A DNA stretch of 39,012 nt from Phycisphaerales bacterium (GTDB taxonomy: Bacteria; Planctomycetota; Phycisphaerae; Phycisphaerales; SM1A02), in assembly GCA_009692045.1 (NCBI GenBank), contig SIAA01000018.1:1-39012 (forward strand). The letters are read 5' to 3'. The notes under the pieces were generated by a model. The model did no database searches. It saw only the letters and a list, made by a program, of their open reading frames with translations, and had not been told where the DNA came from. A program made the position numbers and the translations under genes. Positions 22,520 through 31,033 of this stretch are shown here, one piece after another. Position 1 is the first letter of the stretch. Each line of letters starts with the position of its first letter.

Positions 22520-22548
22520 AGGCTATCGAAATCCAGTCCGGGCGTCCA
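22520..22548 (-). promoter_or_regulatory. Candidate promoter of the riboswitch operon
   Basis: On the minus strand TGGACG (22543-22548, 4 of 6 matches to TTGACA) and TAGCCT (22520-22525) are 17 nt apart. Transcription would start near 22513, about 40 nt before the aptamer. Confidence 0.35.
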
Positions 22549-22627
22549 TGTGGGGATGCAGGCACTCTCAATCATCCACTTTGGCACAGGAGCATGTCTG
22601 TTGCTTGCCGATCCTCGCCTATTCTTC

Positions 22628-22663
22628 TAGCCTCACCAATCCCCCTCTGGCTTGCAATAGGAG
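22628..22663 (+). promoter_or_regulatory. -10-like box and RBS deciding a TTG start
   Basis: TAGCCT (22628-22633) is a possible -10, with TATTCT (22620-22625) as an alternative. TAGGAGA includes AGGAG at 22659-22663, which is 7 nt before the TTG at 22671. It is the strongest SD in the area and the reason for choosing a TTG start. Confidence 0.4.
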
Positions 22664-22670
22664 AACTGTC

Positions 22671-24881
22671 TTGCTCGATCCGATCGCCATCGCCTTGGCT
22701 TGGCCTCTGTTGACCCTTGCCACCTCGGAGAGTTTCGCTCTGTCCAGCCTGCCATGCATCAGCGCAGGCGTAATGCTTGCGGCTGATGACCCGACTGCTG
22801 CTCGGAGGGAGCCGGTGCTCGACGCCACCCAGCACAAGCAGCTAGAGGAGGCGATGCACTATGTGCTGATCGCAAGTCCCGATCTCGCGGCAGCGAATCT
22901 CACCGCGCTCTTTGAGTCGGGGGCTTCTGATGCGCAACTAGCGGGCACGATCGATGGTGACATGCTCACAGATCGAGTGGAGACGGTCATCAGTCGCGGT
23001 CGCCATATGCAGACCGCCGGTCCGCTGGTGCGTGATCTGGAAGTGCGCATTGAGCGAGGTCGGGGCGAGATGGCTCGCAATCCCGCTCGTATCTCGGCGG
23101 CGGTTGACATGCTGGGCGGCTCGATGCGGCAAGCCCTTCTGGCGCGCACGAGGCTTCTGGCCGCTGGCGAATACGCCATGCCCCAGTTGCTCACGGTCGT
23201 CGTGGTCGGCAAGAACAATCCTCAGGTAGCAGCGGCAATCGAGATCATGACGGAGCTGCGGCGTCATGCGGTGATGCCGCTGTGCGCGGCTCTGCCCCAA
23301 GTGGACGCCAGTGTCGCCGTTGAGCTGTGTGGAGTTCTGGGACAGATAGGCTGGCCCACCGCAGCGCCCACTTTGCTGGCGCTGGCGGGACGCGAGGGGA
23401 TCGCTGCCGATGTTCGGGAGGCGGCACTCGCGGCCTACGCGCGTGTGGGTGGAGTCAGCAGCAATCTTGTGGAGGCGTACATCGCCCTTGCTCGTAGATA
23501 CTTTGATTCCTCCCCGGCGCTCATCTCTTATCCGGTTGATCCTCTGAACAATATGTGGAAGTATGAGGGGCATAGCGGTCTTGTTCCCGTGCCGGTGCCC
23601 ACGGAGATTTTCGGTCAGGTCATGGCCATGAGCCTTACCTGGGAGGCGCTGAAGATTCAGCCCGAGAGTCAGCAGGCGCTGGCGTTGTTTGTGGCCTCAG
23701 ACCTGCGGCGGGAGAACTTGCTGGCAGCGGGTAAGACCGATCCGGTATATGGATCACCCCGATACTCGCCCGAGTTCTTTGCCATGATGAGCGGACCCAC
23801 GATCGGTCTGGATGTGCTGTCAATGGCCTTGGATTCTTTTGATACTGCGCTGGCCCTCGACGCCATCTCGGCGCTTGCTCGGACGGCTGGTTCCACCAAT
23901 CTGGTCTCCGGCACGAACCGGCTGCCAATCGTGGACTGCCTGACCTATCCCGACCGGCGTGTTCGATTCGAGGCGGCGCTGACTCTGGCTGCAGCCTCTC
24001 CGGTTACTGAGTTCCCTCAGCACACTCAAGTGGTTCCGGTGCTGGCATACATGGTGCAGAAGGACTCCGTCCCCAAGGCGCTCATCATTGCACGATCTGA
24101 AGAGGATCGAATGAGTTTGGGATCACGGGTGCAGACCCTGGGGTTTGGCTTGCTTCCTGGTGGTCGTGACCTCTCCGAAGTATCTCAGGCAATCACTATG
24201 AACTCCGGTATTGACTTGGTCGTGGCAGCGGGCGGCCGGGGCGAGATCATCGATGCCGTAAGAGGCTTCCGGGAATCGCCGCTGACCTCATCCGTGCCGA
24301 TCATTGCCATTCCCATCGGCGAGGATGTTGCCGCGGTTTCTGCCGAGTTTGCCGCTGACTTCCGCACCGTGATCTCCCAGAGCGGTGCCCCAGAAAGCGC
24401 CTTCGAGAATGCCGTCAAGACTGTCTCCCAGCGCGCGTGGGGCGGGCAAATCGACGGCGACTCCGCGCTGGCTTATGTGACTAGAGCGGTAGATGCACTC
24501 TTGGTGATTTCCCGCTCCTCCAACTCTTCGATATTCGATCTTCGCGCCGGAGAGAGCGCCCTACTGGAAGCGCTGGACAACTCATCCGACTCGCTCCGCA
24601 GTTCCATTGCTGAGATCGTGGCGGCGATTCCTACACCGAGAAGTCAGCGGGCACTTATGGGATTGTCCCTTTCATCCTCGGGCGAAGAGCAGGTCTGGCT
24701 GCTCAACTGGACGGCCGCCAGCGCGCGCCGATTCGGAAATCTCTTGGAGCCCGGTCAGGTCGCAGCGCTGCGCGCACTCATTGGCGAGAGTTCTGCTGCC
24801 AATGCAGATGCGGCTGGCGGACTGTATGGAGCGTTGGATCTCTCCTCGTCCCAGGCCGTGAAGTTGCTGCTTACGAACTGA
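22671..24881 (+). CDS. Large HEAT-like repeat protein with an embedded receiver-like domain
   Basis: A 736-aa protein not assignable to a named family. The start is TTG at 22671 with AGGAG 7 nt upstream. The first 40 residues are hydrophobic (IAIALAWPLLTLATSESFALSSL) and could be a signal peptide or anchor. Residues about 50-460 are alanine/leucine-rich helix pairs resembling HEAT repeats (VRFEAALTLAAASPV, VREAALAAYARVGGV). Residues about 468-590 (PKALIIARSEEDRMSLGSRVQTLGFG ... DLVVAAGGRGEIIDAVRGFRES ... VPIIAIPIG) follow the beta-alpha pattern of response-regulator receivers, but the expected phosphorylatable Asp position reads VVAAGG, so it is probably a pseudo-receiver. More helical repeats follow to the end. 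It ends 41 bp before tRNA-Thr and is divergent from the B12 operon. Confidence 0.65.
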   Translation: MLDPIAIALAWPLLTLATSESFALSSLPCISAGVMLAADDPTAARREPVLDATQHKQLEEAMHYVLIASPDLAAANLTALFESGASDAQLAGTIDGDMLTDRVETVISRGRHMQTAGPLVRDLEVRIERGRGEMARNPARISAAVDMLGGSMRQALLARTRLLAAGEYAMPQLLTVVVVGKNNPQVAAAIEIMTELRRHAVMPLCAALPQVDASVAVELCGVLGQIGWPTAAPTLLALAGREGIAADVREAALAAYARVGGVSSNLVEAYIALARRYFDSSPALISYPVDPLNNMWKYEGHSGLVPVPVPTEIFGQVMAMSLTWEALKIQPESQQALALFVASDLRRENLLAAGKTDPVYGSPRYSPEFFAMMSGPTIGLDVLSMALDSFDTALALDAISALARTAGSTNLVSGTNRLPIVDCLTYPDRRVRFEAALTLAAASPVTEFPQHTQVVPVLAYMVQKDSVPKALIIARSEEDRMSLGSRVQTLGFGLLPGGRDLSEVSQAITMNSGIDLVVAAGGRGEIIDAVRGFRESPLTSSVPIIAIPIGEDVAAVSAEFAADFRTVISQSGAPESAFENAVKTVSQRAWGGQIDGDSALAYVTRAVDALLVISRSSNSSIFDLRAGESALLEALDNSSDSLRSSIAEIVAAIPTPRSQRALMGLSLSSSGEEQVWLLNWTAASARRFGNLLEPGQVAALRALIGESSAANADAAGGLYGALDLSSSQAVKLLLTN

Positions 24882-25031: not shown

Positions 25032-26414
25032 ATGGAAACCGCACTTGGAGCCTTATCACTTGGATTAGCAGCAGTTTTGCTGGTAGGGGGGTTATTCCGA
25101 CCCGGCTGGGCTTTCGCCGCCATCATGCTTCTCTTTCCGCTGGAGCAGGTCATCCAGACCTTTCTCCCGTTCTTTGTCTCCTACGGCCAATTCCTAAACT
25201 ATGCCGTGGGGATTACCGCTGTCTCCTCCCTGATCACCGCTGCGATGCGCGGGCGCCCGGTGATCCGTGGGTATTTGAACATTCCGGCGCTGGGGGCGAT
25301 TCTGCTATATGCCCTTGCCTGCACCTCGCTGATGTGGAGCCCGCAGTTGTATCCCGTGAAGGAGGTGCTGTTGTTCAACATGCCTCCGGTCATTCTGGCC
25401 ATCGTGTTCTCGCCGATGATCCTCAACAAGCTCGATGATGTCAGAGATTTCTGCCGGGCGTTCCTTTTCATCGGGACGATCATGGCAATCCTGGTGATGG
25501 TCAATCCCAATCGCCTCAATGTGTGGGGCCGGTTGAAGTTGGATCTGGGAGGTGTGGAGTCGAATCCGCTCGCGCTCAGCGATCTGGGCGGATCGCTGAT
25601 CATCATGGGAGCGTTCCTCTACCCCAAGGGAACGGCCTCGGTGATGTTCTGGGGCTTCGTGCGCGGCAGCGCCATTTTCTTCGGCAGCGCTCTCCTCTTC
25701 GCCAGCAGTTCGCGAGGGCAGGCCATTGCCGCTGGCGTAGTGGTGTTTCTCCTCTGGCCGTTGGCCCGCAGGATCAAGAGCGTCGGAAGCTTTATCGGGA
25801 CGGGTCTTGCCGCAGGATTGTTACTAGGAGTTGCCTCTATCGGACTTCAGGCGTTTCTGCTCTCGGGAACCGAAAAACGCTGGAGCACCGAGCGCATCGG
25901 CAACGATCTGCTTGGTCGGTTGGATGCGGTCGTCAACCTGCTGAGAGCTTTGGCCAAGAGCCCGTCCGGTTGGATCGTCGGGCTGGGTAGCGGCGCCTAT
26001 GAAACCATCGACTCTTCGCTTCCCTATGTGCACAACACACCAGTTGAGTGCCTAGGCGAGTTGGGAATAGTGGGATTCACGCTCTACGTGGCAGTGTTCA
26101 TAGGCGGCTGGTACGCGCTCTACCGCTATTGGAATATGTGGAAAATCGACCCCGCTACTCGTTGGGTGGCAGCGCTGTTAGTAGCAATGGCCGGGTACTT
26201 CTTCATCATCTCCCTCAAGCAAGGTCACTTGTGGGGCGACTACAAGTTCCTTATGTTCTGCATCCTCGGGGCGCGGCTTGCCATCATTGACGCTCCAGAT
26301 GAGGAGTACCTCGAGGCGCTGGAGTCGGAAGCAACTGAAAACGAGGATGCATCGTTCGACCAGGATTCCCTCGATTCGCCTGAAGCTGGCGAGCATTTGA
26401 AGGCTCGCTCATGA
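25032..26414 (+). CDS. O-antigen ligase/polymerase-like membrane protein
   Basis: A 460-aa polytopic inner-membrane protein with about 10-12 hydrophobic segments. The Wzy_C/O-antigen ligase hallmarks are SSSRGQAIAAGVVVFLL, a large periplasmic loop containing ERIGNDLLGRLDAVVNLLRA, and GLGSGAYETIDSSLPYVHNTPVECLGELGIVGF, where the H-N-x-x-V-E-C-L-G-E-L-G pattern is characteristic. Such proteins join or polymerise lipid-linked glycans. The donor and acceptor cannot be told from sequence. The C-terminal 40 residues are acidic and cytoplasmic-like. There is no good SD. The stop overlaps the next gene as ATGA, so the lipoprotein is translationally coupled. Confidence 0.8.
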   Translation: METALGALSLGLAAVLLVGGLFRPGWAFAAIMLLFPLEQVIQTFLPFFVSYGQFLNYAVGITAVSSLITAAMRGRPVIRGYLNIPALGAILLYALACTSLMWSPQLYPVKEVLLFNMPPVILAIVFSPMILNKLDDVRDFCRAFLFIGTIMAILVMVNPNRLNVWGRLKLDLGGVESNPLALSDLGGSLIIMGAFLYPKGTASVMFWGFVRGSAIFFGSALLFASSSRGQAIAAGVVVFLLWPLARRIKSVGSFIGTGLAAGLLLGVASIGLQAFLLSGTEKRWSTERIGNDLLGRLDAVVNLLRALAKSPSGWIVGLGSGAYETIDSSLPYVHNTPVECLGELGIVGFTLYVAVFIGGWYALYRYWNMWKIDPATRWVAALLVAMAGYFFIISLKQGHLWGDYKFLMFCILGARLAIIDAPDEEYLEALESEATENEDASFDQDSLDSPEAGEHLKARS

Positions 26415-26890
26415 ATCTGCTGCTGTCCTCGTTCGCTGCCCTTGCCATCCTCGCCGCGTGCGATGGTGCGCAACAGGGCGAAAGTTCACTCGACCAGACC
26501 AGCAGGGTTGCTCCGCCGCTTCGCTGCCCCATCAGTGGCGCGCCGGTGAGTGACGAGAAGTTCGTGGCATACTTTCAGGTTTATCCGGTGTACTGCGCCA
26601 GTGCCGTTGATGCGGCCGAGTTTGGGGCGCTGCCTCTGGGAAAGCGAGCCGAGGCGGCGAAGGCGCAGGTGTTGCCGCAAAAGGGAATCTCCAATCTGAC
26701 ATGTCCTCTGACGGGTCAGCCCCTCACAGCGGTTGCCATGCCCATTACCTATCAGAGTGAAGTGATCGGCTTTGCTTCAACGGCCGATGCCAATCAGTTT
26801 CTCTCGCTCAAACCTGACCAGCAGGAACAGCTCGTCTCAAGATGGCGAACCAGCGAGCGGGCGGCGCTGACGGTCTCTGAACCCAAGTAA
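26411..26890 (+). CDS. Lipoprotein with two YHS/TRASH-like Cys repeats
   Basis: A 159-aa exported protein with lipobox LAAC (lipidated Cys17). The mature part is a tandem repeat of about 48 residues. Unit 1 is CPISGAPV ... VYPVYCASAVDAAEFGALP and unit 2 is CPLTGQPL ... EVIGFASTADANQFLSLKP. The C-P-x-[ST]-G-x-P start and the following aromatic/Cys-Ala-Ser/x-x-F pattern recall YHS or TRASH metal-binding modules. Unit 1 keeps the second Cys (YCAS) while unit 2 has lost it (GFAS). Metal binding is therefore possible only in unit 1 (inference). It overlaps the O-antigen ligase-like gene by 4 bp and is convergent with the DegT-like gene 3 bp away. Confidence 0.6.
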   Translation: MNLLLSSFAALAILAACDGAQQGESSLDQTSRVAPPLRCPISGAPVSDEKFVAYFQVYPVYCASAVDAAEFGALPLGKRAEAAKAQVLPQKGISNLTCPLTGQPLTAVAMPITYQSEVIGFASTADANQFLSLKPDQQEQLVSRWRTSERAALTVSEPK

Positions 26891-26893
26891 GTT

Positions 26894-28060
26894 TCAGACG
26901 CGGGTGGCGGTGGTGCGCGAGAGCACGACTTCGAGGCTGTGGCAGACATGCTCGATGTCAACTTCGGTCATGCTGGTGTAAATGGGAAGCGTGATGGTGC
27001 GCTGCGAAACACTCTCGGCGACTGGGCAGGAGCCCACTAAGGTGTTGAGTTTCCGTCGTACCTCGGGCAGGAGATGGGTTGGCACATAGTGATTGGCAGC
27101 TCCCACATCGTGGCGGTGCAGTCCATCGACCACTCCATCGCGATCCTCCTCGGAGAACCTATCACTGAGCCGAACCCAGAACATGGACCAAGAAACTCGA
27201 GCAGCTGGGTCCATCGTGGGAAGAGTCAGATCGTGGCAGCCCGCCAAACGCCGCATGTAGAGGTCGGCCAGTGCCTGACGCTTCTCCACGATCTCCTCCA
27301 GCCTCAACAACTGCGAGGCTCCGATGGCGGCACAAACCTCGGGGATACGGGCGTCATAGCCGGTGAAACTGAAGGACATCAGCATGCCCAGGTCGGCGGT
27401 CTGATCGGGATAACTGCGCCGGTCGGTGCGACCCTGATTCCGTAGGGCACGGCAGATGCCGGCAAGATGATCATCATGAGTGACGAGCGCGCCACCCTCG
27501 CCGCAGCAGATGGGGCGACTCGCGGAGAACCCGAATGCTGCCAGCCGGCCGAAGCGGCCGACTCGATCAGCTCCCAGCCGAGAACCCAGCCCCTCGCTGG
27601 CATGCTCGATAGTGAGGATCTCGTGTCTGTCAGCGACGGCGATGACCTCGGCCATGCCGCTGGGATTCCCAAAGACCGGAACCGCGAGAATCGCGCGCGT
27701 CCTAGGCGTGATGAGTGACTCAACGCTCGATGCCGATGCGTTCAGGGTCCGCAGGTCGCAGTCGGCGAACACCGGAGTCGCACCCACATGAAGCACGGAG
27801 TGAACATTGGCAGCGAAGGAGAAGGAGGGGATGATTACCTCGTGCCCTGGCCCGACATTGAGAGCGCGCATGGCGATCTCGAGCGCGGTGGCGCCGCTGG
27901 AAACGGCGACGGCGTGCGGCCGCTGGGTGGCACGGGCTATCAGTTGCTCAAATGCGAGCGTGGCTTGCCCCATGCTCAAGCGGCCACCGCGAAGCGATCG
28001 GATCGCGGCTTGGATATCTGATTCGTCCAGATCGGGTTTGCTGAGAGGAATGATGGGCAT
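26894..28060 (-). CDS. DegT/DnrJ/EryC1/StrS-family protein lacking the PLP lysine
   Basis: A 388-aa full-length homologue of sugar aminotransferases. It begins IPLSKPDLDESDI and contains VSSGATALEIAMRALNVGPG, IIPSFSFAANVHSVLHVGATPVFAD and a normal C-terminal half. In the family the pyridine-nitrogen Asp lies in an IEDA motif and the Schiff-base Lys in x-K-x-x-x-x-G-E-G-G. Here these read IEHASEGLGS (His153, codon CAT) and SASRPICCGEGG (Arg182, codon CGC). Normal aminotransfer is therefore unlikely. It could be a PLP- or PMP-using enzyme of another type, a regulator, or a decaying copy, but the intact frame argues against decay. The ATG at 28060 gives the conserved N-terminus. It lies 56 bp after the secreted HEAT-repeat gene on the same strand. 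Confidence 0.85.
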   Translation of the reverse strand: MPIIPLSKPDLDESDIQAAIRSLRGGRLSMGQATLAFEQLIARATQRPHAVAVSSGATALEIAMRALNVGPGHEVIIPSFSFAANVHSVLHVGATPVFADCDLRTLNASASSVESLITPRTRAILAVPVFGNPSGMAEVIAVADRHEILTIEHASEGLGSRLGADRVGRFGRLAAFGFSASRPICCGEGGALVTHDDHLAGICRALRNQGRTDRRSYPDQTADLGMLMSFSFTGYDARIPEVCAAIGASQLLRLEEIVEKRQALADLYMRRLAGCHDLTLPTMDPAARVSWSMFWVRLSDRFSEEDRDGVVDGLHRHDVGAANHYVPTHLLPEVRRKLNTLVGSCPVAESVSQRTITLPIYTSMTEVDIEHVCHSLEVVLSRTTATRV

Positions 28061-28116: not shown

Positions 28117-29595
28117 TCAGGGTCTGCTCGCGGCCATTGCCTGAGCGAGTCGGCCGGAGTGGCGGAGGAACAACCACGCCGCCTGAATGCGAAGGGAGGG
28201 ATCAAGGTCACCGCCACCGGAAGCGACTCGCCCCAATTCAGCCAACTGGGTGGGTGTCAACTCGGTGCGGCTGCGGGCGATGGACAACAGTGCAAGTGCT
28301 TCACCGCGTCGGCTGAGCGAGCCTTTCACCGACTCGCAGAGTGCCGCACCCTTTTCTGATGATCTGTTGTTCAATCCGAGCAGAAGCAGTTCTTGTTCCA
28401 CCGGCTCGCGGGAGTTGCGAATGGCCTGCTCGACGAAGGAGGGATCCTCGTCCGCAAGTTGGGCGGCTTCGACCAGATAGGCACGCAGCATGGTGGCTGG
28501 GGCAGAATCGGATTGAACCTCTTCAATGACTGCTCGCTCTACCGCCGCTCGGTTCGTGGCGGGAAGTTGCTGGGCGATTCGCAGCGCCCACTCAGTCGCC
28601 TGTCGATTATGAGTGCGGACTAGATCAGCAAGAGCCTTTGCTGAGGCAGCCGGATCAGAGCCAGAACACGCGGTGATGGCATCGGCAATCGCCTCAACGA
28701 GAGGCTCCCCGTTGCGGAGCACATCAGCAGTGCCTGGTGGCAATCCTTCCGCGTGTCCCAATAGCTGCAATGCGGCGCGCACCAAATGAGTCTGACCGCG
28801 CTCGCGTTCCACGAATCGGCGCCACGGCCCCAGCCCGCGGTCGCGATCAAGAGCCAGCGCCGTGCCGTTGACCACGGCGACTGTCACGGGAGTAAGTGTG
28901 GTGTCAGAGGCGAGCTCCAGCAGAGGTGAAACGGCCCGCTTCATCTTGTAGGTGAGGGCCGCCTTGGCCAGCTCCTGCAGCACGGTATTGCGGCGAGTGG
29001 CGCTCAACTTGGAGAACCCCGCGGCGAATGCATCCCATGCCGCACGGTGATCGTGTGCCAGCAATTCCAATGAAGCCATGCCTCTGACTTCATCCGTCAC
29101 ATCGGCTCGCGTCGAGATGGCTTTAATGGGCGTGTAATCCCACTCTTCTCCCAGGAAATCGAGCTCGGCAACGAGAACGATTCGATCGATGTCGGTCAGA
29201 TCGCTCCACCCCAACATCTGCTGGATGCTGGCGGGCTTGACCAAGCCGAGAGAGATCGCTCCGCGAATAGCGGCTGACCTGTCCTCGGCGGATCCGAGGC
29301 GGCTCACCAGAAACGGTTCAATGTCCTTGTTCTCGCTGGTCTCAGCGAGGCCCAGAATGCCATCAACGCGCATCGACCAATCACCCGACTGAGCCAGCGA
29401 CTCAAAGAGTGGTCGCATCTTGGGATCCTGCAGAGCCCGAAGCGAAACCAAGAGTGCGTGCTGATCTCCCGTTGGCCCTGCGGCAGTGGCGCGGCGGATG
29501 GCAGCGGCTGCTTCCTCCGCGGGATCGACACGATCAGACTGTCCAACTGCAGTCGAGACGGAGACCACTACCGCGAGCAGAGCGAGAATGCGCAT
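28117..29595 (-). CDS. Secreted HEAT-like repeat protein
   Basis: A 492-aa protein with a signal peptide (MRILALLAVVVSVSTAVGQ, cleaved near residue 19) followed entirely by short amphipathic helix pairs (for example MRVDGILGLAETSE, RSAAIRGAISLGLV, VRGMASLELLAHDHRAAWDAF) typical of HEAT or related alpha-solenoid repeats used for protein binding. No catalytic motif is seen. The ATG at 29595 is chosen over one 9 codons upstream because it begins the signal peptide and has TACACT 8 nt upstream. It starts 31 bp after the dnaA stop on the same strand but seems to have its own promoter. Function unknown. Confidence 0.7.
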   Translation of the reverse strand: MRILALLAVVVSVSTAVGQSDRVDPAEEAAAAIRRATAAGPTGDQHALLVSLRALQDPKMRPLFESLAQSGDWSMRVDGILGLAETSENKDIEPFLVSRLGSAEDRSAAIRGAISLGLVKPASIQQMLGWSDLTDIDRIVLVAELDFLGEEWDYTPIKAISTRADVTDEVRGMASLELLAHDHRAAWDAFAAGFSKLSATRRNTVLQELAKAALTYKMKRAVSPLLELASDTTLTPVTVAVVNGTALALDRDRGLGPWRRFVERERGQTHLVRAALQLLGHAEGLPPGTADVLRNGEPLVEAIADAITACSGSDPAASAKALADLVRTHNRQATEWALRIAQQLPATNRAAVERAVIEEVQSDSAPATMLRAYLVEAAQLADEDPSFVEQAIRNSREPVEQELLLLGLNNRSSEKGAALCESVKGSLSRRGEALALLSIARSRTELTPTQLAELGRVASGGGDLDPSLRIQAAWLFLRHSGRLAQAMAASRP

Positions 29596-29603
29596 CTGCC
29601 GAG

Positions 29604-29609
29604 AGTGTA
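29604..29609 (-). promoter_or_regulatory. Putative -10 box (TACACT), leaderless start of secreted HEAT-repeat gene
   Basis: TACACT on the minus strand ends 8 nt before the ATG at 29595. The intervening CTCGGCAG has no SD complement. Confidence 0.4.
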
Positions 29610-29626
29610 ACGGCGCGAACACCCCG

Positions 29627-31033
29627 CTAGGTGCGTACCGATCGGGCCTCTCTCACGATTCTCTCCAGAGCGTCCTGAACCCGAGTTGGCTCGCCGGTTG
29701 GACCTAGGAACTCAGCACCGCTCTTGGCCAGAGTCTGGGCTTTGGCTGCGGCAGCGTGGGCGCTGGAGTGCGTCGATTGCCCGAGTTCCCTAGCGATTTC
29801 TGGCCAGGAGAGCGGAGTTGACTCTCGGAGTGCCAGCGCCGCGAGGCTGCGCGCGAGTGAGACTCGTCTCTGCCGTGATCGGCTCAGAAGTAGCTCGTTG
29901 GTTACGCCGACGATGGCACAGGTAGCTTTGATCAGAGCGCCGGCACGCAGGGGGAGTTGCTTGGCGTTGAGAAGACCGGCTGCTCGGAGTACGAGTTGGG
30001 GTCCGCACTCCCCAGTCGCACGATCAACCAATCGCTCGGCGGCCATGCGGGAGACGAGTCCCTCTATCTCCCGCACACTTGTAATGGGGACTTGCCCAGC
30101 GGCAGCGATTGCCGCGGTTGAGAGTGCTAGCCCTCGGGCGAGGGCGAATCGTTGGATGAGCAAGAGGCGTGTGGCCGAGTCCGGATACTCAAGGGAGACG
30201 ACTAGCCCTGATGAGAACCGGCTGGAGAGCGATTCGGCGAAAGCCTTGATTGCCCGCGGCGGGGCATCGCTGGCGCTTACGACCCGAACTCCTGACTGCA
30301 GGCAGGCATCCAGAGTGAGGAGCAGTTCCGTTTGCGTGCCGGGCTTGCCGCTGAGGAAGTGAATGTCATCAATCACCAGGAGGTCAACTCGCCGCACTCG
30401 GGCGCGCAGCGAGTCGAGTGAGCCGGTGCGCACAGCGGACACATACTCATTGAGAAACATTTCTGCGCTGGAGTAACGCACCTTCGCCGTAGGGTGAAGG
30501 CGCCGATAGCGCTGACAGATTCCCTGCAGCAGGTGGGTCTTGCCCACGCCGCAGCCACCGTGAAAAAACAGGATGGGGCTGGCTTCTTCGGGGTGCTCCG
30601 CCAGCTGGCAAGCGGCGGCGAAGGCCAGTTTGCTGCCTGGACCGACAACGAAGTGATCCAGCGACTTCCACCTGGGCATGAAGGCACGCCGCAGTGGGGG
30701 TGGCTGGGGCCGGTCGCTGGGATCTGGCAGGGGTAGAGTCACACCACAAGATTCGTTCTGGGTCTCAAACACCACGCTCGCACCCGCACAGATTGCACTG
30801 GCAGCAATGCGCTCAAGACTCTCGCGGAAGTGTCGTTCAATCCAGTTGGTTCGGAACTTCCCATCCGCTCGCACCAGCAGGCGCGCGCCATCGGTTTCGA
30901 TTTCGGTTGAGCCTCCGAACCACATCGCGAAGCGCTGCGCGCCGATCTCTTGCGCGAGCGCCTCGCGTATGCGAGTCGAACCCTGGCGTGCTGATCGAGC
31001 AGAGTGCGATTCCGTGCCTAAGCATCCGTGCAA
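29627..31033 (-). CDS. dnaA: Chromosomal replication initiator protein DnaA, divergent domain IV
   Basis: A 468-aa AAA+ initiator. Domain I is about 15-90 (REALAQEIGAQRFAMWFGG). Domain III starts near 115 with DHFVVGPGSKLAFAAA, Walker A GGCGVGKTHLLQ (159-170), Walker B LLVIDDIHFL (218-227) and the arginine-finger region LSSRF (269-273). Domain IV (about 365-435) keeps the helical pattern, but the DnaA-box recognition signature, normally GGRDHTTV, reads GQSTHSSA (418-425) with only His retained of the D-H-T contacts. The start codon is TTG at 31033, with AAAGG 8 nt upstream and no ATG or GTG near it. dnaN, recF and gyrB are not adjacent. The next best reading, an Hda/DnaA-like regulator, is less likely because domains I and IV are present. 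Confidence 0.88.
   Translation of the reverse strand: MHGCLGTESHSARSARQGSTRIREALAQEIGAQRFAMWFGGSTEIETDGARLLVRADGKFRTNWIERHFRESLERIAASAICAGASVVFETQNESCGVTLPLPDPSDRPQPPPLRRAFMPRWKSLDHFVVGPGSKLAFAAACQLAEHPEEASPILFFHGGCGVGKTHLLQGICQRYRRLHPTAKVRYSSAEMFLNEYVSAVRTGSLDSLRARVRRVDLLVIDDIHFLSGKPGTQTELLLTLDACLQSGVRVVSASDAPPRAIKAFAESLSSRFSSGLVVSLEYPDSATRLLLIQRFALARGLALSTAAIAAAGQVPITSVREIEGLVSRMAAERLVDRATGECGPQLVLRAAGLLNAKQLPLRAGALIKATCAIVGVTNELLLSRSRQRRVSLARSLAALALRESTPLSWPEIARELGQSTHSSAHAAAAKAQTLAKSGAEFLGPTGEPTRVQDALERIVREARSVRT

Follow-up and report, generated by a model that had tools for sequence, protein, structure and literature searches.

The dnaA-X-DegT locus and its altered protein

This study focused on a DegT-family gene from a Phycisphaerales contig (SIAA01000018.1), of which a stretch of 39,012 nucleotides, referred to here as the window, was analysed. 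The gene lies downstream of dnaA and of a gene designated X, and encodes a protein, P0001, in which several residues that are characteristic of the family have been replaced. The genes of the locus and the codons of interest are:

29627..31033, minus strand: dnaA, the positional anchor upstream of gene X and the DegT gene
28117..29622, minus strand: gene X, 501 aa, between dnaA and the DegT gene
26894..28060, minus strand: DegT-family protein P0001, 388 aa, open frame matching PF01041, without the family Lys and Asp
27890..27892, minus strand: codon 57, Ala at the position of the phosphate-binding Thr (Thr in 50 of 51 orthologues of the Asp/Lys type)
27602..27604, minus strand: codon 153 (CAT), His at the position of the Asp that pairs with the pyridine N1
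27515..27517, minus strand: codon 182 (CGC), Arg at the position of the PLP Schiff-base Lys
27401..27424, minus strand: codons 213-220, the loop D-R-x-S-[FY]-x-x-Q, a motif fixed in no group but the Arg182 clade
27353..27355, minus strand: codon 236, Asp (Asn in 50 of 51 Asp/Lys orthologues)

The frame of P0001, read from 28060 to 26894 on the minus strand, was open across all 388 codons, and the protein scored 329 bits against the Pfam profile DegT_DnrJ_EryC1 (PF01041; cut-off 19.8). Its profile match and its fold both place it in the DegT/DnrJ/EryC1/StrS superfamily. The AlphaFold2 model had a mean pLDDT of 94.0 and a pTM of 0.91, with lower pLDDT (73-77) around residues 211-230. Its best structural match was the GDP-perosamine synthase 3bn1 (Z 51.5, rmsd 1.5 over 366 residues), and the nearest solved structures were GDP-perosamine synthase, PseC, Spr1654 and ArnB. 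As modelled, the DegT fold of P0001 is intact.

Positions 182 and 153 were set on the family Lys and Asp by BLAST and HMMER alignments to relatives and by comparison with solved DegT structures. An earlier note on this DNA had reported Arg182 (CGC) and His153 (CAT) in an intact frame, and the codons and alignments agree with it on each of these points. It had also held that all other motifs were intact, which proved wrong: Thr57 is replaced by Ala, Asn236 by Asp, and residue 179, three before the Lys position, is Ser where Tyr is conserved in the Asp/Lys orthologues. The Asn at position 236 is presumably the residue that, in ArnB, contacts the PLP phosphate from the other subunit. For the N1-pairing Asp and the phosphate-binding Thr, the roles are those given in the cited passages of the Spr1654 paper (PMC5936713).

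P0001 lacks the residues expected of a functional DegT aminotransferase, namely the Schiff-base Lys, the N1 Asp and the equivalents of the phosphate contacts Thr57 and Asn236, and it has Arg182 in place of the His that replaces Lys in ColD and E1. What it presents is the pattern of a pseudoenzyme, with the catalytic residues gone and the frame, position and low dN/dS kept. Read from the sequence, the residue at position 182 rules out a Lys Schiff base there.

Gene X has a signal-peptide-like N-terminus and is predicted to be an all-helical solenoid or repeat protein (pLDDT 91.5). It had no match in Pfam or NCBIfam, and a fold search against the PDB returned nothing at E <= 0.001, only generic helical-repeat matches. 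Its location between dnaA and the DegT gene is conserved across the order of the window. A locus was regarded as testable when at least 2.6 kb lay upstream, and 16 Lys-less and 4 Lys loci were too short. On the same strand and at most 3.5 kb away, dnaA was found upstream in all 86 testable Lys-less loci (window included), and it was upstream in 42 of the 48 testable Lys loci, the remaining six having no dnaA on the stretch. Since dnaA-X synteny is common to both types, what is seen at the Lys-less loci is, judged by position, the orthologue of the canonical gene rather than some remote paralogue. The branch leading to the DnaA of the window is very long in the dnaA tree of the family, at 1.59 changes per column.

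Pocket residues in the Arg182 clade

The first search, covering 61 relatives, gave a match in every one (61/61). Later searches covered the family of the window, f1 (181 genomes), and a 400-genome sample of the order, and a second f1 search was seeded with a divergent relative. The orthologues extracted numbered 154 from f1 and the first sample of the order, with 33 more from other families; the set leaves out some genomes of g18, g33, g60 and g22 that were matched in the second family search, as well as matches below thresholds or missing from fragmented assemblies. Two of the sequences (L194, L199) are truncated at contig ends, and one genome (G193) is represented by two rows. Two genomes named as Phycisphaerae/Phycisphaerales (L032, L037) gave DegT matches of only 34-38%, and a search of both for gene X found no match. 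Lys was present in 52 of the 154 orthologues and absent from 102, all of which belong to f1, while the orthologues from other families were of the Asp/Lys type in 53 of 53 examined (20 + 33).

Alignment of homologues, the check that the earlier note had proposed, identified Arg182 as a clade trait, carried by all 59 sequences, which come from 58 genomes in eight genera (g1, g5, g15, g17, g25, g54, g61 and g62). The clade was monophyletic with an SH-aLRT value of 99 when columns 153 and 182 were masked (103-row subset), and again with a value of 99 when 15 pocket columns were masked (94-row subset). Position 153 was occupied by Asn in 38 of the sequences and by His in 21, and switches between them occurred inside genera g1 and g17, so the pair of Arg and His, which had been treated as a unit, is not one: His is no fixed partner of Arg. 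Such a joint change of Lys and Asp, without exception among the 59 sequences of a clade spanning several genera, is more than would be expected by chance. Codon usage at position 182 was informative as well. Among the 60 sequences with Asn/Arg or His/Arg at 153/182 (g2 included), CGC was used in 21, CGA in 16, CGG in 11 and CGT in 12, and the presence of all four CGN codons with no replacement means that synonymous change occurs at this site and amino-acid change does not.

The changes extend well beyond these two residues. At least 90% conservation in 51 Asp/Lys orthologues was found for 152 columns, of which 73 were still conserved to this level in the Arg clade and 18 had fallen below 10%, the switched columns including T57 (A, G or S in the clade), D153, Y179, K182 and N236. 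Contact positions had switched in 5 of 10 cases, compared to 13 of 142 other conserved columns (P = 0.002); nine of these ten positions were transferred manually from PMC5936713, and the tenth, Asn236, was assigned by reference to ArnB. Eight positions were fixed (at least 95%) in the Arg clade and rare (below 20%) in the Asp/Lys orthologues, namely R182, D213, R214, S216, F/Y217, Q220, D236 and H315, and five of these form the loop motif. Residues E156, E188 and G189 were kept, along with an aromatic residue at position 82 (Phe or Tyr in 57/59).

Selection and the loss of lysine within f1

Median within-genus dN/dS, calculated from pairs with dS between 0.1 and 2, was 0.056 in g17, 0.078 in g25, 0.136 in g5, 0.050 in g54 and 0.084 in g61, all of them Arg genera, and 0.221 for the single pair available in g1, also an Arg genus. 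The corresponding ranges were 0.034-0.128 in six Asp/Lys genera and 0.055-0.358 in other Lys-less genera. Distances between genera, relative to those of dnaA, were 0.74 for Arg pairs, 0.54 for Asp/Lys pairs and 1.31 for other Lys-less pairs, and the higher ratio of the Arg pairs signifies that some relaxation is present. The Arg clade is slightly faster than its canonical relatives and clearly constrained, with g28 and g60 being looser.

A decaying gene or a sequencing error is barely credible as an explanation. The faster evolution relative to dnaA is what decay would predict, but 58 genomes share the same change, their frames are intact, dN/dS is low, and Arg182 is conserved at the level of the codon, and on these grounds sequencing error and local decay were rejected. 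Judged from the alignments, Arg182 and the loss of Asp153 together are a conserved trait of the clade. The earlier note had named two outcomes that would have spoken against its interpretation, closest homologues having Lys and Asp or a pocket free of selection, and neither was seen: both residues are missing from the closest homologues too, and selection on the pocket is strong. The two options it left, a different solution or a non-enzymatic role, were the right ones to weigh.

Lys has also been replaced in other ways within f1. Genus g18 has kept Asp153, with Ala, Thr or Ser at position 182. The residues at 153/182 are Asp/Ser in g33, g35 and g55, Asp/Arg in g28, Leu or Ile/Ser in g6 and g13, Val or Ile/Ser in g16, Asn or His/Gly in g26, and Ile or Val with Glu or Asp in g60. 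Many of these other Lys-less types have a broken or shortened Gly-Glu-Gly-Gly motif after the Lys position and a broken or shortened 211-230 loop. Because the gene is kept in several genera with Ser, Ala, Thr, Gly, Glu or Asp at position 182, the role for which it is retained needs no Lys.

Lys was lost at least once in f1. By parsimony there were two losses on the gene tree and four on the dnaA tree, so the trees suggest two to four changes; a single grouping of all Lys-less rows was not rejected on the gene tree (p-AU 0.175), nor on the dnaA tree with the long row g22 dropped (p-AU 0.434).

Interpretation of the remodelled pocket

The interpretation that we consider probable is that P0001 is a maintained pseudo-aminotransferase, with a remodelled and probably ligand-binding pocket and without PLP catalysis. 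With the N1 partner, the phosphate Thr and Asn236 gone, use of PLP or PMP is unlikely, though possible, while the invariant Arg182, the new loop and the low dN/dS imply that the pocket has kept some task. The simplest account, and the most likely, would be binding of a ligand or partner by way of the rebuilt pocket.

A DegT gene of the sugar-aminotransferase type is found at the dnaA-X locus across the order of the window. In part of f1, Lys and other cofactor contacts were replaced, with frame, position and purifying selection kept, and in the clade to which P0001 belongs the pocket was rebuilt, with Arg182, Asp236, Asn or His at 153, a small residue at 57, the D213-R214-x-S216-[FY]217-x-x-Q220 loop, and His315. 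The protein would retain the fold-type-I homodimer, would no longer bind PLP as a Schiff base, and would not carry out transamination. The emptied cofactor space may be filled by charged side chains lying under the new loop, one candidate being a cross-subunit pair of Arg182 and Asp236. Most Lys-less relatives with Ser, Glu, Asp or Gly at position 182 have Asp236 too, and its being common in relatives without Arg182 means that such pairing is not required, which weakens the idea of a salt bridge. The function of the protein would presumably lie in binding a sugar-nucleotide-like ligand, or another anionic one, for which it might be a sensor, a scaffold or a carrier.

Several observations count against the pseudo-aminotransferase interpretation. 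None of the neighbours of the DegT gene explains a function, the retained E156, E188, G189 and aromatic residue 82 would also be expected of a cofactor-binding pocket, and the rate relative to dnaA points to some relaxation. Another comes from g2, a ninth genus with Asn/Arg at 153/182 but on a long branch of uncertain placement, which lacks R214, S216, F217 and D236. The g2 sequence in L191 (5986-7152, minus strand) has Asn/Arg, keeps Thr57 and is without most of the new loop motif; it is possibly an intermediate.

A new type of PMP enzyme, holding its cofactor non-covalently as ColD and E1 do, with Arg182 as catalytic base and His or Asn facing N1, is unlikely. The N1 Asp, the phosphate-site Thr and Asn236 have all gone, the last being replaced by a negatively charged Asp. 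Asn at position 153, unlike Asp, cannot keep the pyridine N1 protonated. More favourable to such an enzyme are the invariance of Arg182, the retention of E156 and of Glu188-Gly189, which in the cited passages on Spr1654 contact the phosphate via water (PMC5936713), and the existence of DegT dehydratases in which His has replaced Lys, as the cited passages of PMC8987622 describe.

The analogy with ColD drawn in the earlier note is weak, given the additional loss in P0001 of the Asp and of two phosphate-site residues. ColD, E1 and SpnQ share with P0001 a DegT fold without Lys, and presumably retain the cofactor-binding Asp. They are active enzymes with a catalytic His, whereas P0001 has Arg for Lys, and has lost the Asp and the phosphate contacts as well. 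According to the cited passages of PMC8987622, proteins with this Lys-to-His change are still PMP enzymes (3-dehydratases), and the Lys-less DegT proteins described there keep a PLP-type cofactor and enzyme activity, in contrast to what is proposed for the Arg clade. GDP-perosamine synthase of Caulobacter crescentus (3bn1/3dr4/3dr7), which has the same DegT fold and 34% identity in the structural alignment, carries the Schiff-base Lys (186) and the N1 Asp where P0001 has Arg and His; compared to it, P0001 is also without Thr57 and Asn236 and its loop is 11 residues longer.

Could the rebuilt pocket (Arg182, Asp236, D213, R214 and H315) instead form a new, cofactor-independent enzyme? The eight clade-fixed positions resemble the product of selection for chemistry or tight binding, and dN/dS remains low, but no case of cofactor-free catalysis in this fold was found in this study, and the gene is kept in related Lys-less genera that have neither the loop nor the Arg. 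This makes such an enzyme quite unlikely.

A further, very unlikely, explanation is a non-catalytic subunit paired with a canonical DegT paralogue, in the manner of LCB1 and LCB2 in serine palmitoyltransferase. There is a precedent in LCB1/SPTLC1, a Lys-less protein of PLP fold that, in the cited passages of PMC3794620, is retained in the heterodimer, and canonical Asp/Lys DegT genes (L102-L104) are present in the genome of the window and in one of the same genus. However, identity to these paralogues is only 30-32%, they are found on other contigs, and the Lys-less protein replaces the Asp/Lys orthologue in position, with no close copy beside it. LCB1 is eukaryotic and pairs with a homologous active subunit; for P0001, no close active paralogue was found in these two genomes, and a heterodimer with a close paralogue was rejected.

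Regulatory use of related folds offers another comparison. The original DegT of Bacillus is said to have been described as a regulatory gene. MocR/GabR proteins employ an aminotransferase fold for regulation (PMC6677901) and add a DNA-binding domain to it, whereas P0001 consists of a single DegT domain from end to end. In the cited part of a survey of Bacillus subtilis PLP proteins, the DegT members are aminotransferases and none is a pseudoenzyme (PMC6522883). Searches of the openly licensed literature turned up reports of neither an Arg-type, Asp-less DegT clade nor a Lys-less DegT pseudoenzyme, which does not prove that there are none.

From its residues, the Arg-clade protein appears to be a pseudoenzyme within the DegT family, and what had been noted for a single protein is confirmed and belongs to a series that runs through the family. 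In over 40 genera of f1, one orthologous gene in syntenic position is either canonical or has one of several dead-looking active sites, and is kept nonetheless. The 102 Lys-less f1 sequences examined are probably misannotated when they are called 'aminotransferase'. The series is a natural experiment on the non-catalytic roles of a sugar aminotransferase and on the refilling of a cofactor site, and since the orthologues are matched by position, exchanging intact for rebuilt versions allows direct tests. More tentatively, and perhaps doubtfully, lineages of f1 may have passed from PLP held by Lys, Asp and phosphate contacts to Arg182/Asp236 under a new loop, giving a ligand-sensing or cofactor-free protein, with living relatives showing the stages: intact (Asp/Lys), partly rebuilt (g2), fully rebuilt (Arg clade) and stripped (Ser, Glu or Gly).

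Three further genes on the opposite strand were noted. A 159-aa protein (26411-26890, plus strand) begins like a lipoprotein and carries two similar C-P-[IL]-[ST]-G-x-P motifs, with no match in Pfam or NCBIfam. Convergent to the DegT gene is a multi-helix membrane protein (25032-26414, plus strand) with a sub-threshold match to O-antigen ligase (Wzy_C; 26.6 bits, cut-off 31.7). A 777-aa protein (22548-24881, plus strand) shows a weak HEAT-repeat match and, on visual inspection, a stretch similar to a response-regulator receiver domain; g54, g17 and g5 likewise have members of its sequence cluster downstream of their DegT genes. Planctomycete-like features were also noted, namely DUF1559 with an N-methylation motif, and a dockerin.
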